Assembly: GCA_021817325.1 (NCBI GenBank)
Contig: JAKAVK010000021.1
Coordinates: 1-59,621 of the forward strand
Length of the DNA stretch: 59,621 nt
From: Microcaldota archaeon
GTDB taxonomy: Archaea; Micrarchaeota; Micrarchaeia; Micrarchaeales; CABMGC01
Reading direction: 5' to 3'
Position numbers and translations under genes: made by a program
Notes under the pieces: model-generated
The model's database searches: none
The model's input: the letters and a program-made list of their open reading frames with translations, nothing else
What the model was told of the DNA's origin: nothing
Shown: positions 3,877 to 52,902 of the stretch, in pieces
Layout: each line of letters begins with the position of its first letter
Position numbering within the stretch: the stretch's first letter is position 1

Positions 3877-4479
3877 ATGAAAGCAAGACGAGGATTCGGA
3901 TTTAGACTGCAGTCAGCTATGGAGTATCTGATGACGTATGGATGGGCCATCCTGATTATCGCAGTCGTGTTGGCAGTGTTGTTCTCTCTGGGAATATTTG
4001 GAGGAGGAAACCTCCTTGGCACATCGTGCCTTGGATCTCCAGGGTATTCTTGCCAGACGCCTTTGCTGAACAGCAGCGGACTGCTGAGCTTTACGCTCGG
4101 TGAGAGCACTGGTACGACGATCTATAACGTGCAGCTTGCATGTGCCGCAACGGCAACGAGCACAGGAATGCCTTACGACACTAACGCGCTCTACTCGAAC
4201 CCATTCCAGAGCGTCAACGCGCTTACAGGCAGGGCAACGGCGTCAAACGCTGTTCCAACCAATCCGTTGACAATGGCAAGCGGGCAGACAGCGCAGGTGT
4301 CAAATGTGGTGTGCTTCAACGCACAGGGACAGCCTATGAATGCGGCGCCTAACAACGCACTTGGAACAAGCTTCAGTGGGACGGTGTACGTAAACTACAC
4401 CACGGCAGCCACTACGCCTGGTTCGACAAACCCTTGGCAAACCACCAAGCTTGCGACACTTACGATAAAGGTAACGTGA
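3877..4479 (+). CDS. Type IV pilin-like protein with class III signal peptide
   Basis: LQSAMEYLMTYGWAILIIAVVLAVLF matches archaeal Q-S-x-E class III signal plus hydrophobic helix. Confidence 0.75.
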   Translation: MKARRGFGFRLQSAMEYLMTYGWAILIIAVVLAVLFSLGIFGGGNLLGTSCLGSPGYSCQTPLLNSSGLLSFTLGESTGTTIYNVQLACAATATSTGMPYDTNALYSNPFQSVNALTGRATASNAVPTNPLTMASGQTAQVSNVVCFNAQGQPMNAAPNNALGTSFSGTVYVNYTTAATTPGSTNPWQTTKLATLTIKVT

Positions 4480-4601: not shown

Positions 4602-5198
4602 GTGAATGGTGAAAATAAGATGGTCTTTCCAAGGCTTCAGAGCGCTATGGAGTATCTGATGACTTATGGATGGGCAGTACTGATCATAGCAATCATACTT
4701 GTAATGCTCTATTTCCTAGGGGTTTTCAATCTTGGTACCCAGACAACGACAGTATGCCAGAGTGTTCCGGGCTACTCGTGCCAGGGACTCACGTTGAACA
4801 GGAGTGGCTATCTGAGCTTTGAGCTGACGCAGAATACCGGCTCCGTATTCCACAATATGCAGATTGCGTGCAGTTCATCGCAGGGAAGCTCTGGACCTTA
4901 CATAGACGGGATCAACCCGTTTCAGTATGTGGATTCGGGCAACGGAAACCGCGCGCAGCCAAATGCGCCATCCGCAGACAATGTGCTGGGCATGAGCTCC
5001 GGCGCTAGCGCCTTCATAGGCAACATTGTCTGCTACAACATCAATGGCGCCGCCACAAACGTTAACCCGCAGGCGATAGGTGCAGTGTATACAGGATCGA
5101 TATTCATTAACTATACAATAGCAGGAGGGGCGCCGTCCCAGACCACCAATCCCTGGCAGACGGCCAAGGTTGCTACAATCTCAGTTAAGGTAACGTGA
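4602..5198 (+). CDS. Type IV pilin-like protein (paralogue of 3877-4479)
   Basis: LQSAMEYLMTYGWAVLIIAII and matching C-term INYTIAGG...TNPWQTAKVATISVKVT. Confidence 0.75.
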   Translation: MNGENKMVFPRLQSAMEYLMTYGWAVLIIAIILVMLYFLGVFNLGTQTTTVCQSVPGYSCQGLTLNRSGYLSFELTQNTGSVFHNMQIACSSSQGSSGPYIDGINPFQYVDSGNGNRAQPNAPSADNVLGMSSGASAFIGNIVCYNINGAATNVNPQAIGAVYTGSIFINYTIAGGAPSQTTNPWQTAKVATISVKVT

Positions 5199-11981: not shown

Positions 11982-13067
11982 ATGGCGGCTGACAGGAGGA
12001 TGCAATCTGCTATAGAGTACCTGCAGACCTATGCATGGGCGTTCATCATACTTGCAATTGTCGTCGCGGTACTGGCCTATTTCGGCATCTTCGGGATGAA
12101 CACAAAACTGAGGCTGCCTCCGGGATCCTGCTTTGTCAACAGGCCCTATGGGCCCAACACCACGCAGTTCCTCTCGTTGAGCGGCAACTGCAACGGCGAT
12201 CTGCCCGAGTATGTCATACACTTCAACGGGCAGCTGGCCGGAGGCTACGAGGGGGACTGGTTTACCGACGTTGATTACTGCGCATCTAGCGGTTACTGCG
12301 TTGGATTCCCCTCTCCGCTCCAGTGGCCGCAGCAGGTCGGATGCAATCTGACGATGAATGCATGGTCATATGATATAGGAATGGGTTCCAGGGGTGCGCC
12401 CAGCGGCTTCCCCACTGCGACAGGCGATGCGCAGTGGCAGGCGAGCGATTGGCCGCCAGGCGTCTACTCTTTAGGAGGCGTTGTTGCTCTTTGGAATACT
12501 ACATGGGATCCGATAAACAGCGGGGAGGACTATGCAGACTTCGACATAGAGTATAACGATACCATAATGAGGTTTGAAGCCGCAGACAGGCCGGATCTTA
12601 ATCAGTTCTTCGTTGTTTCTAATTCTTTTTTCGTGCCGTCGAATGGCTTCACCAACGGGGGGAATTTCAAGGACAGGTGGGTCATGACCACGCTAACCGT
12701 CGATAACGGCGTAGCCATGGCCTACATAGACGGCATACCGGTCTCTCCACCGAGCCCTCAGATCGACTGCTCTTATCTTGTATCGAATTATATGAATCAG
12801 GGCGTGATAGGCATGTGGGACAGGGCATTCAACGGCACCATAAGCAATGTGCAGATATACGATATCGCGCTGGGTGCGAACACGGTGCATGCGATGTATA
12901 CGGACGGGATGGGACAGGTGCCGCTGGATCCTATCCACTTGATAGGGTGGTGGCAGCTGAATGGCAATGCCAACGACTCGAGCGGCAACGGAAACAACGG
13001 ACAAGGAGCAGGCTGGGCGCAGCTTACATATACCGACATATATCCGGAACCGCCTTCTGGCGGCTGA
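11982..13067 (+). CDS. Pilin-like surface protein with LamG/concanavalin-like domain
   Basis: MQSAIEYLQTYAWAFIILAIVVAVLAYFGIF then LamG-like LIGWWQLNGNANDSSGNGNNGQ. Confidence 0.75.
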   Translation: MAADRRMQSAIEYLQTYAWAFIILAIVVAVLAYFGIFGMNTKLRLPPGSCFVNRPYGPNTTQFLSLSGNCNGDLPEYVIHFNGQLAGGYEGDWFTDVDYCASSGYCVGFPSPLQWPQQVGCNLTMNAWSYDIGMGSRGAPSGFPTATGDAQWQASDWPPGVYSLGGVVALWNTTWDPINSGEDYADFDIEYNDTIMRFEAADRPDLNQFFVVSNSFFVPSNGFTNGGNFKDRWVMTTLTVDNGVAMAYIDGIPVSPPSPQIDCSYLVSNYMNQGVIGMWDRAFNGTISNVQIYDIALGANTVHAMYTDGMGQVPLDPIHLIGWWQLNGNANDSSGNGNNGQGAGWAQLTYTDIYPEPPSGG

Positions 13068-13106: not shown

Positions 13107-14093
13107 ATGGCGCCAGAGAATAAGATGCAATCTGCTATAGAGTACCTGCAGACCTATGCATGGGCGTTCATCATACTTGCAATTGTCGTCGCGGTACTGG
13201 CCTATTTCGGCATCTTCGGGATGAACACAAAACTGAGGCTGCCTCCGGGATCCTGCTTTGTCAACAGGCCCTATGGGCCCAACACCACGCAGTTCCTCTC
13301 GTTGAGCGGCAACTGCAACGGCGATCTGCCCGAGTATGTCATACACTTCAACGGCAGGGGCAGCGCATGGAACATGTACGCCTGCGGTGTAAGCCTTAGT
13401 ACGTGCATAGTCGTCCCAAGCCCGTTTGCAGGCCAGTTGGTATGCAACGCTACAGTTTCGCTCTGGTCCTACGATCTTGGCATCGGAGGCAACGGTGGCG
13501 GATGGAGCCCTGGCGAGTACGGCGCATCTTATGGCCAGTGGTACGATGGCGGCGGTGCAGCCCAGCCTGCAGAGGCCACGCTCGGTGGCACCTTTGCGCT
13601 TTATAACGGAGTCGTCGTTCCTGGAGATATTGACATAGAGTATAACGATACACTGGTCAGATTCGAGGCACGAAATTATCAGAACAGGAACCAGGCATTC
13701 GTGCAAGGCAATTTCAAGGGCAGGTGGATAAACACAGTAGTGACACTCGACAATGGAATCGCTGTAGGCTACATAAACGGAGTGCAGGTTACGCAGAACA
13801 GCCCAGACATAGGCTGTATAAACCTAAACGGTGGCGTTGTCGGCACGTGGGATGCGCCGTTCAACGGCTTTGTCACGAATATACAGGTGTATAACACAGC
13901 GCTGGATGCGAACACAATAGCTTCCATGTACAAGTATGGTGCAGGTGGTGTTCCGCTTGACCTTCTGAACCTAGTCGCATGGTGGCAGCTGAATGGGAAT
14001 TCGAATGATTCGAGCGGAAATCAAGGCTCTGGAACGGTAAATGACTTATCATACAATAACAATTATCCCGCCCCGCAGGGTTCTGGGGGTTGA
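13107..14093 (+). CDS. Pilin-like surface protein with LamG-like domain (paralogue of 11982-13067)
   Basis: N-terminal region nucleotide-identical to upstream gene over 231 bp; LVAWWQLNGNSNDSSGN. Confidence 0.75.
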   Translation: MAPENKMQSAIEYLQTYAWAFIILAIVVAVLAYFGIFGMNTKLRLPPGSCFVNRPYGPNTTQFLSLSGNCNGDLPEYVIHFNGRGSAWNMYACGVSLSTCIVVPSPFAGQLVCNATVSLWSYDLGIGGNGGGWSPGEYGASYGQWYDGGGAAQPAEATLGGTFALYNGVVVPGDIDIEYNDTLVRFEARNYQNRNQAFVQGNFKGRWINTVVTLDNGIAVGYINGVQVTQNSPDIGCINLNGGVVGTWDAPFNGFVTNIQVYNTALDANTIASMYKYGAGGVPLDLLNLVAWWQLNGNSNDSSGNQGSGTVNDLSYNNNYPAPQGSGG

Positions 14094-15601: not shown

Positions 15602-17506
15602 ATGCGAATACTCCAGCTTGACGTAGATGAGATAGAGTTCGAACTGGTTAGGGAAGAGGCAAGGCTCTTTGAAAAATACGACGAGAGGAGAGTAAAGGTA
15701 TCCGATGCGCTAGTGCTTTTGACCTCTATAGAGAAAGGGGACAGTGAGGGTACAGTGGAGCAGGCGGTAACGGAGGCCTCCGAATTCGCCCGCAAGCAGA
15801 AGATAGGCGTTGTTGTAGTCTATCCGTTTGCCCATCTCAGCGGCAACCTCGAGAAACCGGACAAGGCGCTGGAGCTTCTGGTACAGATGAGAACAGCGTT
15901 CAGGGACCGCGGCTTCAAGGTGATTTCTGCCCCTTTCGGATGGAACAAGAAGCTGAAGCTCGACATTAAGGGGCATCCACTTGCCGAGATGTCACGCCAG
16001 TATGCGGGCACGTCGGCAATGGGCGCTGCTTCTGCAGGCAGCGCACATGCAGGGGCTGGAATCACGGCGGCTGCGGAATCGGCAGCTCTGAGCGAGGAGG
16101 ACAGGGTAAAATCCACATGGTACGTACTCGACACTGACGGTAAACTCACTGAGGCGGGCAAGTTCAACTTTGAGAAATACAAGAACCTCAAGAAGTTTGC
16201 TGATTATGAGATCAAGAAGGTGCGGGTATACCAGCAGGCACCGCCCCATATAAAGCTGATGCAATCACACCAGCTGATAGATTACGAGGCCGGTTCGGAT
16301 GCCGGTAACTTGCGCTTCTATCCGAACGGAAGGTTGATCAAGAAGTTGCTTGAAAACTACGTGACTGCGAGGGTTATAGACTATGGTGCGGTAGAGGTTG
16401 AGACCCCGATAATGTATGATTACAGCCATCCGGCGCTTAAGGAGTACCTAAACAGGTTCCCCGCACGCCACTACGTGGTGTCATCCGATGACAAGGAGTA
16501 CTTCCTTAGATTCTCAGCTGACTTCGGACAGTTCCTGCTGATGCATGATGCTACGGTATCGTACAAGCAGCTGCCCTTCAGGTTTTACGAACTTACACGA
16601 TACAGCTTCAGGAGGGAGAAGAGCGGGGAGGTCGTCGGCCTTAAGAGGCTGCGTGCATTTACGATGCCGGATATGCATACGCTCTGCAAGGACCTGGACG
16701 AGGCGAAAGGCGAGTTCAGTAGGCAGTTCGAGTTTTGCCAGACGGTACTGGCAGACATAGGCATAGGCGCCGGGGAGTATGAGGCCGCAATAAGGTTCAC
16801 AGAGGACTTCTGGAAGGAGAATAGCGCCTTTGTGATTGGTGTGGTTAAGAACCAGCTCAAGAAGCCGGCGCTTATAGAGATGTGGAATTTCCGCTACGCG
16901 TACTTTGACCCCAAGTTCGAATTCAATGTGATAGACTCGATGGACAAGGCAACTGCGCTGTCCACGGTGCAGATAGATCATGAGAACGGGGCGCGCTATG
17001 GCATGTCGTATACAGACAGCGACGGCCAGAAAAAGTATCCGATAGTAATGCACTGCTCCCCTAGTGGCGCGATAGAAAGGATCATATATGCCCTTCTTGA
17101 ATTTGCTGCGCTGAAGCAGGCCCGCGGGGAGACGGCCTCGCTGCCCCTCTGGCTAGCTCCGACGCAGGTGAGGCTCCTCTCAATGTCTGACAAGCACGTG
17201 AGTAGATGCCTCGAGATTGCAGAAGAGTTCAGGCAACGCAAAATCAGGGCTGATGTTGACGATACAGACACCACAATCGACAAGAAGATACGCACCGCTG
17301 AGCAAGAGTGGATCCCTTATATCCTGGTAATAGGGGACAGGGAGGCTTCGTCAACTGAACTCACTGTGAGGATAAGGGGGGAGAAGGTGCAGAAAAAGAT
17401 GACCGTGGATGATTTGTCAGGCATCATATCTGGCAGTGTGAGGTCGATGCCGGATGCACCCCTTTCCCTGCCGGTGCTTCTCAGCAAGAGGCCTTCCTTC
17501 AGATGA
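15602..17506 (+). CDS. thrS: Threonyl-tRNA synthetase, archaeal type with N-terminal editing domain
   Basis: MRILQLDVDEIEFELVREEARLFE editing domain; RFSADFGQFLLMHDATVSYKQLPFRFYELTRYSFRREKSGEVVGLKRLRAFTMPDMH. Confidence 0.92.
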   Translation: MRILQLDVDEIEFELVREEARLFEKYDERRVKVSDALVLLTSIEKGDSEGTVEQAVTEASEFARKQKIGVVVVYPFAHLSGNLEKPDKALELLVQMRTAFRDRGFKVISAPFGWNKKLKLDIKGHPLAEMSRQYAGTSAMGAASAGSAHAGAGITAAAESAALSEEDRVKSTWYVLDTDGKLTEAGKFNFEKYKNLKKFADYEIKKVRVYQQAPPHIKLMQSHQLIDYEAGSDAGNLRFYPNGRLIKKLLENYVTARVIDYGAVEVETPIMYDYSHPALKEYLNRFPARHYVVSSDDKEYFLRFSADFGQFLLMHDATVSYKQLPFRFYELTRYSFRREKSGEVVGLKRLRAFTMPDMHTLCKDLDEAKGEFSRQFEFCQTVLADIGIGAGEYEAAIRFTEDFWKENSAFVIGVVKNQLKKPALIEMWNFRYAYFDPKFEFNVIDSMDKATALSTVQIDHENGARYGMSYTDSDGQKKYPIVMHCSPSGAIERIIYALLEFAALKQARGETASLPLWLAPTQVRLLSMSDKHVSRCLEIAEEFRQRKIRADVDDTDTTIDKKIRTAEQEWIPYILVIGDREASSTELTVRIRGEKVQKKMTVDDLSGIISGSVRSMPDAPLSLPVLLSKRPSFR

Positions 17507-17508
17507 TG

Positions 17509-17796
17509 CTATATAATACAGATTACCTTTCCTGCTACCGCTGCACGGTCCACATATCCAAAAGACCTGCTGTCCTCGCTCATCTCCCTGTTGTCGCCCA
17601 GCACATACACGGAATTATCACTCAGCGCGGATATCCGCTTTACAATCTTAATGCGCCTTGCAGGGTGCTCGAGCACCACAATGTCGCCAGGCTTTAGCTT
17701 TCCAAACCATCCGGTGGCTATTAGGTACTCGCCTCCCTTGATTGCTGGCTCCATGCTCCTGTCAGCCGCCTTGAATATGCGCAGAGGCATTCTCAT
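17509..17796 (-). CDS. sodX: S26-family signal peptidase-like protein, candidate Ni-SOD maturation protease
   Basis: Ser motif DRSMEPAIKGGE and Lys motif KIVKRI, GDNREMSEDSRSFG; ATG overlaps (ATGA) the stop of the NiSOD gene. Confidence 0.8.
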   Translation of the reverse strand: MRMPLRIFKAADRSMEPAIKGGEYLIATGWFGKLKPGDIVVLEHPARRIKIVKRISALSDNSVYVLGDNREMSEDSRSFGYVDRAAVAGKVICII

Positions 17797-18308
17797 ATCT
17801 TTGGATAGACGAATGTCCTCTCTGTCGGATAGTAGGACTTGACCCTCACGGTCTGCACCTTCTTCGTCTTCCAGAAGGCCTCGGCAAACCTCTGCACGTT
17901 CTCGAGCAGGGCGTCAGCATCCTTTATGTCTGTACTCTGCTTTGCCTTTCCGGCAAGCTTGAGGGTGTTCCATACTAGCTCGTTCAGCTCGGGGTTCTCT
18001 TTGGCGTGCTCCGGCTTCATGTAGTCGCCCCAGATGACTGTTATCTCATGCTTGCATATCTCGGCGTGCTCCTCCTTGACCTTTACGTAGCGTATGAGCT
18101 TGTTCCTGTCCTCCACGGAGCTGCCTCCGCCCTTCATGACATCGGCTATGAGCATGTCCATGCGCACAACAGTGTGGGCTGCAAGCTGCGCCGCATGAGG
18201 ATCGTATATACCGCATGGTATGTCGCAGTGCGCGTATGCAGTCTCGAAATGCAATACCCTGTCCGCGAAGGCCAGTGTCTTCCCCGCAGTGATTCTTATC
18301 TTATCCAC
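17793..18308 (-). CDS. sodN: Nickel superoxide dismutase precursor
   Basis: Ni-hook HCDIPCGIYDP after a 26-residue leader MDKIRITAGKTLAFADRVLHFETAYA. Confidence 0.9.
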   Translation of the reverse strand: MDKIRITAGKTLAFADRVLHFETAYAHCDIPCGIYDPHAAQLAAHTVVRMDMLIADVMKGGGSSVEDRNKLIRYVKVKEEHAEICKHEITVIWGDYMKPEHAKENPELNELVWNTLKLAGKAKQSTDIKDADALLENVQRFAEAFWKTKKVQTVRVKSYYPTERTFVYPKI

Positions 18309-18429
18309 TATATCACCAGATAGTATTATTCGCTAGAATTTATAACGTTTCTCATTGCGCGCGGCATGGCTTTCGCAGACGCGCATGTGGCTTTATAAGC
18401 GTTGGTCTCCATCCTATGCAATTGATCGG

Positions 18430-18891
18430 ATGGAAAAAGGAAGTTCTCAGGGCTTTCCGCTCATAGGCATCATAGCAGGCGCTGCTGTGGGCATACTGCT
18501 GGCCAACCTCTTCCTGAGCGTCATAGGCGCAGCCATAGGAGGCGTTGTGGCGGTAGTGCTTGATGGAAGCATTAGTATTAAGAGGGCGGTGGGCATAGGA
18601 ATTGCTGCAGGAGTCGTCGTAGGGGTCTTTCAGGCGTACCTGGTAGGCGTGCTATTGCCAGAATATTATTCGGCAAATGCGCAGCTCCTCGGGTCCGCGG
18701 CAGGCAATGCGCCTCTCCTGTCAGCAGTTATAGAGCTTGTCCAGGCAGCCACAGTGGTAATATATGCTGCGTCATGCACAGTTGGCAGCGTGATAGGGAA
18801 ATTCCTCTTCGTGAAGAGCATGGACGGGGGCGGTGGATCGGATGTGCAGGCAAGATCAGGAGGGGACGTTGGCCCGATTAACAGGTATTAA
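18430..18891 (+). CDS. Small membrane protein, Gly/Ala-rich helices (DUF5518-like?)
   Basis: ATG at 18430; hydrophobic segments LIGIIAGAAVGILLANLFLSVIGAAIGGVVAVVL and RAVGIGIAAGVVVGVF. Confidence 0.55.
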   Translation: MEKGSSQGFPLIGIIAGAAVGILLANLFLSVIGAAIGGVVAVVLDGSISIKRAVGIGIAAGVVVGVFQAYLVGVLLPEYYSANAQLLGSAAGNAPLLSAVIELVQAATVVIYAASCTVGSVIGKFLFVKSMDGGGGSDVQARSGGDVGPINRY

Positions 18892-51459: not shown

Positions 51460-52902
51460 GTGCAGCGTGGCAAGAAGAAAACGTCTATGCGTGGGCAGTC
51501 AGCAATAGAGTACCTGATCACCTATTCATGGGCGATCCTCATCATTGCAATAGTGGCTGTGCTGCTGTACATCTATGCTGCTGGGTCCACTGCCATAGTC
51601 CCTTCCCGGTGCAGCTTCACCAACGATGTTGACTGCTCCGATGTGGTGTTCGGTGGCTCCGCAGGCGCGAACGCCATGCTTCTGCTCTCCAATCCGCAGC
51701 CTTATGTGCTGATAAATCCGTCGATAATTACAAGCATCGGGAATTCGGGAAATGCGACAGGCACGTGCACGCCAAGTTATATCCTCCCAGGAGGGGCATT
51801 CTATTGTGTAGTCTCGGTGCCCGGTACATACGTTCAGGGCAGCACGCAGTTTGCAGACCTATACCTGAAGGGCATACCATGCACAAGCGGCAACGCCATG
51901 CAATGCGATTTGCTCTCCCCGCAGACCTACACCGGCACATTCCAGACACAGTACCAGGCAAAAGCCCCTGTCCTGCAGCCAGTTATACTCCTTGCAATTG
52001 CAAACAGCACCACGCCAGTGTCCACTGAAGACCTTCTCAAGGCGCACGTGATTTTCTCAAATACGGTAATACAAGGGGCGGACCTCAACTTTACATCCAA
52101 CGATCAATACATGACTTTCTCACCGCAGAAAGAGGCAACAGACAGTAGCGGCAATGCATATACCTATCTAGAGGCCAACCAGCCCGGATTGGCGACTGTA
52201 ACAGTCTCATTCGGAGTCTACTCGAATTCGATAACCGTGAACGTGATCTCCGGTGACACAGTCACTTTCGCAGAGAGCGGCGGCTGGTCTACAGACAACG
52301 TGCTCATCGTCGATGGCCAGGACTACGGTACAGACCAATTGCCGCTTACCTTCACATGGCAGCCCGGCAGTTCGCACGCCTATGTGTTTGAAGACGACCC
52401 CTACGCACCTAACGCAATAGGGGGCTGCGGAACGGCGTCTGCAAGCGGCATGCTTACGATGGTGGTCAACTGCACTGTTACTGCGACCTATGTCAGCCCA
52501 CAGCAATTAGGTATGGCGGAAGAGGGCTACCCAAACAGCAATCCGCCGCCTACCTATGTAGATAACTATGTCATAACTCCCAGCAGCGATTCCGCCAACC
52601 TCATCTGGTGCGGCAGTGCGGCCCCTAACAATGCCCTTTGGACAGGGGGCAGCAGCCCAAGCGTCAACTGCCCAAGCCAGGCCCCGTATCTTCTCACAAC
52701 AGGGGCAGTAAACATAAATCCCCTTGCTGTATACAGCCAACCTGGTACCTACTTTTTCTTCGGCTGTGACAAGGCTACAGCAATGCTGGATTGCACACAG
52801 GATAACGGTGCTGGTGTTGCCGGAGTTACCACGATACCAAGCAGTGGCTCGCCAACAATAACAATCGCCATAGGCGCTCCATGGGGCCCTGGCACAGGCT
52901 AA
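51460..52902 (+). CDS. Type IV pilin-like surface protein with Ig-like domains
   Basis: GQSAIEYLITYSWAILIIAIVAVLLYIY class III signal; 480 aa. Confidence 0.75.
   Translation: MQRGKKKTSMRGQSAIEYLITYSWAILIIAIVAVLLYIYAAGSTAIVPSRCSFTNDVDCSDVVFGGSAGANAMLLLSNPQPYVLINPSIITSIGNSGNATGTCTPSYILPGGAFYCVVSVPGTYVQGSTQFADLYLKGIPCTSGNAMQCDLLSPQTYTGTFQTQYQAKAPVLQPVILLAIANSTTPVSTEDLLKAHVIFSNTVIQGADLNFTSNDQYMTFSPQKEATDSSGNAYTYLEANQPGLATVTVSFGVYSNSITVNVISGDTVTFAESGGWSTDNVLIVDGQDYGTDQLPLTFTWQPGSSHAYVFEDDPYAPNAIGGCGTASASGMLTMVVNCTVTATYVSPQQLGMAEEGYPNSNPPPTYVDNYVITPSSDSANLIWCGSAAPNNALWTGGSSPSVNCPSQAPYLLTTGAVNINPLAVYSQPGTYFFFGCDKATAMLDCTQDNGAGVAGVTTIPSSGSPTITIAIGAPWGPGTG

Follow-up and report, generated by a model that had tools for sequence, protein, structure and literature searches.

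Two short genes on the minus strand of a 59,621-nucleotide stretch of Micrarchaeota DNA (hereafter the window) raise the question of whether an archaeon of this phylum relies on a nickel superoxide dismutase (NiSOD) matured by its own protease and, if so, what this enzyme replaces and where the gene pair came from. The answer favoured here, and held to be highly likely, is that the two genes form a bicistronic sodN-sodX cassette in which SodX cuts the SodN precursor after Ala26 and the nickel-loaded SodN replaces Fe/Mn-SOD as superoxide defence. SodN would be synthesised inactive, as a cytoplasmic precursor, and SodX, a Ser/Lys protease that is small, soluble and akin to signal peptidases, would cut after Ala26 (AYA before HCDIPCG), thereby freeing the N-terminal His. 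The hook would then bind nickel via the amine and imidazole of His1, the amide and thiolate of Cys2 and the thiolate of Cys6, and the folded enzyme, presumably a hexamer, would dismutate superoxide. The cassette would have been gained from bacteria and later moved or lost inside the order.

The sodN gene and its nickel hook

The first gene, sodN (18308..17793, minus strand), has a GTG start and encodes a NiSOD precursor of 171 aa. HMM searches placed its product in Sod_Ni (PF09055; 4e-42, 144.2 bits for a cutoff of 25) and in TIGR02753 (9.9e-45, 152.3 bits for a curated cutoff of 90), and six solved NiSOD sequences aligned by phmmer from SodN residue 27 or 28, which corresponds to the mature N-terminus. 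The AlphaFold model (pLDDT 88.8) is predicted to have the four-helix-bundle NiSOD fold, with a TM of 0.90 by target length to the NiSOD crystal structures 1t6u and 1q0d. The nickel hook, HCDIPCGIYDP (residues 27-37; 18198..18230, minus strand), includes His1, Cys2, Asp3, Cys6 and Tyr9. In the alignment, H1, C2, D3, P5, C6 and Y9 are identical in all sequences compared (45 archaeal, 34 bacterial), while the first-sphere ligands, Asp3, Tyr9 and Tyr62 do not vary across the 45 archaeal SodN. Since the hook is invariant in orthologues from dozens of genomes, the SodN of the window is not a chance occurrence. Sequence, HMMs and fold all agree with the initial annotation, which had recognised a NiSOD with a His1/Cys2/Cys6/Tyr9 hook behind a 26-aa leader, and the identity of the gene, its ligands and its fold are established by sequence and model.

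Outside the first sphere, the alignment shows Ala17 and His47 in the window SodN where Streptomyces has Glu17 and Arg47, a difference that counts against the main reading. In the Streptomyces enzyme, axial His1 is held in a network of hydrogen bonds with Glu17 and Arg47 (PMC5722923), and a protein devoid of Glu17/Arg47 might have changed function, binding nickel with weak or no dismutase activity; these second-sphere residues differ in 45/45 archaeal sequences. Yet the same change is widespread in NiSODs of Chloroflexota: all 45 archaeal SodN and nearly all Chloroflexota sampled have Ala or Ser at position 17 and His or Tyr at position 47. Glu17/Arg47 were found, among the sequences aligned, only in the two actinobacterial ones (Streptomyces and Nonomuraea), so that it is the solved NiSODs that are atypical at these positions. 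Combined with the invariant first-sphere ligands, Asp3, Tyr9 and Tyr62 and with the replacement of Fe/MnSOD by NiSOD genome by genome (see below), this leaves a change of function extremely improbable and favours an active dismutase. Ala17/His47 was rejected as an archaeal invention because the change is common in Chloroflexota.

SodN ends in a C-terminal tail, VQTVRVKSYYPTERTFVYPKI (17796..17855, minus strand), which was delimited by alignment and has predicted strands at residues 153-157 and 165-169. The tail is missing in the Streptomyces and Dormibacterota enzymes; Novosphingobium and some Chloroflexota have a homologous tail, which led to its rejection as an archaeal invention. Micrarchaeota and tail-bearing bacteria might tentatively be viewed as a distinct NiSOD class, characterised by Ala17-His47, an added C-terminal beta hairpin and a D-R/K...F..A-Y-A leader read by its own SodX, although we regard this as rather unlikely. 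If true, the class would perhaps represent a differently tuned enzyme for metal-rich acid habitats. More generally, the two-gene cassette, its strict cleavage signal and the natural Ala17/His47 variants offer material for probing the axial-histidine network.

The leader and the SodX protease

The 26 residues that precede the hook, MDKIRITAGKTLAFADRVLHFETAYA (18231..18308, minus strand), constitute a leader or propeptide according to positional counts and hydropathy, with a predicted helix at residues 2-19. Cleavage is expected after Ala26 (AYA/HCD), between 18231 and 18230 on the minus strand, where A/V-x-A before the hook His conforms to the classical -3/-1 rule of signal peptidases: among 45 distinct Micrarchaeota proteins, position -1 is Ala in 45/45 and position -3 is Ala or Val in 45/45. 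Archaeal leaders further display Asp at -11 (43/45), Arg or Lys at -10 (35/45) and Phe at -6 (39/45), which suggests a lineage-specific recognition motif, whereas bacterial leaders have the -3/-1 pattern in common with archaea but carry Pro at -7 (30/36). Bacterial SodN precursors are processed by a cognate peptidase, exposing the Ni-binding hook (PMC3919588, PMC8346466), and the archaeal leaders are in keeping with such processing. Hydropathy revealed neither a secretion-type hydrophobic segment in the SodN leader nor a transmembrane anchor in SodX and, consequently, both proteins are read as cytoplasmic.

The second gene, sodX (17796..17509, minus strand, ATG start), encodes an S26-type Ser/Lys peptidase of 95 aa with no transmembrane segment that is most likely the NiSOD maturation protease. 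It matches Peptidase_S26 above cutoff (1.5e-17), and its model (pLDDT 93.4) gives TM values of 0.82-0.88 by query length to signal peptidases, the best PDB matches being SipA and type I signal peptidases, among them SpsB and E. coli signal peptidase; a profile search of solved structures also returned signal peptidases. Ser14, the predicted nucleophile (codon 17755..17757, minus strand, DRSMEP motif), and Lys53, the predicted general base (codon 17638..17640, minus strand, IVKRI motif), are both invariant in the SodX alignment. The Ser/Lys dyad is established by sequence and model, and the presence of the S26 fold bears out the earlier assignment of this small ORF to S26-type peptidases. Neither of the two outcomes that the initial annotation had set as refuting it, a failure to place 17793-18308 in Sod_Ni or an absence of this fold from the small ORF, was obtained. 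Its length, previously seen as unusual, is not: TIGR02754, the model of the NiSOD maturation protease, spans 90 positions and a compact SodX also exists in Chloroflexota, which rules out compactness as a novelty.

SodX could instead be a general small peptidase or a housekeeping signal peptidase located beside a genuine sodN, the SodN precursor being trimmed by another enzyme. It scores 64.5 bits with the generic signal peptidase I model TIGR02227 versus 62.3 bits (4.4e-17) with TIGR02754, about 1 bit short of the curated cutoff of the latter (63.25), and this shortfall counts against the main reading; that cutoff is passed by the SodX of 15 of the 20 relatives having the gene. Gene distribution, however, argues for a dedicated enzyme, as initially annotated, since SodX was found in precisely the 20 of 60 relatives having SodN (20/20 genomes with SodN, 0/40 without), a co-occurrence that is established on the same basis as the dyad. 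In all 20, sodX is on the same contig as sodN and within a few hundred bases, and the two genes remain neighbours also where one of them is on the opposite strand. SodX also lacks the transmembrane anchor, and a separate, weak candidate for an archaeal-type signal peptidase occurs in the host genome (G000:C27). A housekeeping function for SodX is thus very unlikely, and maturation of SodN by SodX remains the preferred reading.

Organization of the locus

The stop of sodN and the start of sodX overlap by 4 nt (ATGA; 17793..17796, minus strand), so that translational coupling of the two genes is likely in the window, although an alternative sodX start is possible at an in-frame ATG 6 nt downstream. 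Spacing between the two genes varies among relatives from -4 to about +19 nt and hence ATGA coupling is no general rule. Upstream of sodN, a GGTGAT sequence located 3 nt before the GTG (18312..18317, minus strand) may act as a Shine-Dalgarno-like signal, and a TATA-like TTATAAA detected by pattern search ca. 34 nt before the start (18339..18345, minus strand) is a likely promoter, the pattern being weak alone with 8 matches in the window versus 5.1 expected. A search of 17400-18500 gave neither a bacterial-type promoter nor an intrinsic terminator.

In genus g15 (G023, locus L161, and G235, locus L160), sodX lies on the opposite strand, tail-to-tail with sodN. The operon structure is therefore not universal, which counts against the main reading, and linkage of the two genes persists without an operon. 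A different situation was encountered with two Micrarchaeota contigs, L032 (4489-4776) and L033 (4471-4764), which have 97.5% DNA identity over 3.3 kb through sodN, then diverge abruptly ca. 28 codons into sodX and continue with unrelated flanks; this break reflects either recombination within sodX or a chimeric assembly.

On one side of the cassette, a gene for a small membrane protein, with its ATG at 18433, runs divergently from sodN. This gene (18433-18891, plus strand), which has the intergenic region in common with sodN, weakly matches the S component of an ECF transporter (E 0.0024) and was not kept next to sodN across the loci compared. On the other side, the end of sodX abuts the convergent thrS (15602-17506, plus strand), whose stop is at 17506. 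Among the ThrRS compared (loci L151, L152 and L154 besides the window), those of G000, G006 and G007 are 71% identical throughout, while for those of G003, G004 and G005, which belong to the same genus and occur in the same neighbourhood, identity is 55-60% in the N-terminal editing domain and only 26-28% in the core. The divergent-core ThrRS score best with the general thrS model (TIGR00418), unlike that of the window, which fits the archaeal model, and the pattern looks like a domain-level replacement. Elsewhere in the window, five ORFs (3877-4476, 4602-5195, 11982-13064, 13107-14090 and 51460-52899) share an N-terminus of the type MQSAIEYLxTYxWAxxIIAV, reminiscent of the class III (pilin-like) signal peptides of archaea.

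NiSOD and Fe/Mn-SOD in Micrarchaeota

The main new fact is that a Micrarchaeota genome hardly ever combines NiSOD with Fe/Mn-SOD, an exclusivity established by sequence and model. Among 60 relatives of the host, NiSOD is present in 20 and Fe/MnSOD in 31 without a single overlap, and the other 9, mostly incomplete genomes, lack both enzymes; the overlap of 0/60 corresponds to a p of 2e-9, a value that ignores kinship. When 295 Micrarchaeota genomes were considered, NiSOD was found in 52 and Fe/MnSOD in 166, with a single genome having both versus 29 expected (statistics which also ignore kinship). The host genome, G000, is 90% complete and contains one SodN, one SodX and no Fe/MnSOD. Superoxide reductase was absent from all 60 relatives and was rejected as a backup on that ground. 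The sole genome of the 295 with both enzymes, G235 (contig C56, locus L160; 77% complete), counts against the main reading, and its double SOD may be real or a binning error.

NiSOD and Fe/MnSOD states each occur within a single genus in two instances (g1 and g31), indicating that a single ancient divergence does not account for the switch. NiSOD was not seen to have taken over the chromosomal site of Fe-SOD, the Fe-SOD genes of G003 and G005 being located elsewhere. Almost all NiSOD genomes (51/52) fall within two families of one order. The NiSOD cassette is itself ordinary, and the lineage in which it occurs, though unexpected, is well populated with it: the initial annotation was correct in suspecting a DPANN archaeon, the host lineage being Micrarchaeota, but not in viewing the pair as rare, with 52/295 Micrarchaeota genomes having NiSOD, nor in viewing a compact pair as unusual in such an archaeon, with the pair common in the host's archaeal order. 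The oxic and acidic lifestyle that it had proposed finds indirect support only, at least some named relatives having come from acid mine drainage (FK is the site code for Fankou AMD; PMC5864196).

A survey of Micrarchaeota genomes has reported Fe superoxide dismutase for the phylum (PMC5864196), and a study of acidophilic archaea described SODs and mentioned nickel enzymes only in classification (PMC8773360). NiSOD has already been reported in archaea, including some DPANN (PMC10783094); no paper describing it in Micrarchaeota was found in a literature search of papers available without subscription. With ca. one sixth of the 295 Micrarchaeota genomes, and one third of the close relatives of the window, having NiSOD and its protease in place of Fe/Mn-SOD, the order is a natural test case for how, and for what reasons, an archaeon that is reduced and probably a symbiont exchanges the metal in an essential antioxidant enzyme.

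Origin of the cassette

The cassette is bacterial in type, as would be expected if a bacterial contaminant contig had been binned into an archaeal genome. It is flanked, however, by archaeal genes, including a thrS with an archaeal editing domain, and the conserved order thrS-sodX-sodN in G007, which belongs to the window's own genus, rules out a binning error. The closest SodN relatives (54-84% identity) also come from archaea, on 17 independently named MAG contigs (16 labelled Candidatus Micrarchaeota, one Marsarchaeota), so that the probability of contamination is negligible and the cassette is assigned to the archaeal host. The contig labelled Candidatus Marsarchaeota (L029) carries a NiSOD that is 73% identical to that of the window and falls inside the Micrarchaeota clade; it represents either a mislabel, a misbinning or a transfer.

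In the SodN tree (145 columns), the 45 Micrarchaeota sequences form one clade (support 100/95 and 99/96) that adjoins bacterial NiSODs with a homologous tail (support 78-90), and a clade uniting Micrarchaeota with tail-bearing bacterial SodN was not rejected (p-AU 0.385). Chloroflexota, including Dormibacterota, make up most of the bacteria in this tree, the others being Novosphingobium, Nonomuraea and Streptomyces; Thermoplasmatota and Cyanobacteria are missing. A single Micrarchaeota clade beside tail-bearing bacterial NiSODs makes acquisition as a bacterial cassette most likely, and the archaeal sodN-sodX pair is, on tree topology, probably a transferred bacterial cassette. SodN from the window's own genus are scattered over the tree, whose resolution is low with 145 columns, and this scatter fits movement within the order. 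SodX, which is short and fast-evolving, provided too few columns for a decisive tree of whether it followed SodN once. No relatives of the window NiSOD branch were found in IMG/VR contigs or phage records and just two records, both megareplicons, in the plasmid collection; on these results, the idea that viruses, phages or plasmids carry the branch was rejected.

Comparison with known NiSOD systems

The SodN of Streptomyces coelicolor (1t6u, 1q0d) and that of the window have in common the hook HCDxPCGxY, Asp3, Tyr9, Tyr62, the fold and a leader before His1, whose removal is predicted for the window enzyme; the latter differs by Ala17/His47 for Glu17/Arg47, a 20-residue C-terminal tail and an insertion between helices 1 and 2. 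SodX resembles the proteins described by TIGR02754 (see sodX, SCO5255) in its size, Ser/Lys S26 core, sodN-adjacent gene and lack of anchor, the window member being 1 bit below the curated cutoff. The NiSOD of marine group II (PMC10783094) is likewise archaeal, mostly exclusive of Fe/MnSOD and attributed to bacterial transfer, but it belongs to marine Thermoplasmatota, which are absent from the present sampling, and Cyanobacteria were named as its source. Finally, the NiSODs of tail-bearing Chloroflexota (G499, locus L094, and G467, locus L096) and of Novosphingobium (L072) have a C-terminal tail homologous to that of the window SodN, and the two Chloroflexota loci also encode a compact anchorless SodX as in the window; these tail-bearing bacterial enzymes are about 50% identical or less to the window SodN, and their leaders have Pro at -7 where archaeal ones are marked by Phe at -6 and Asp at -11.
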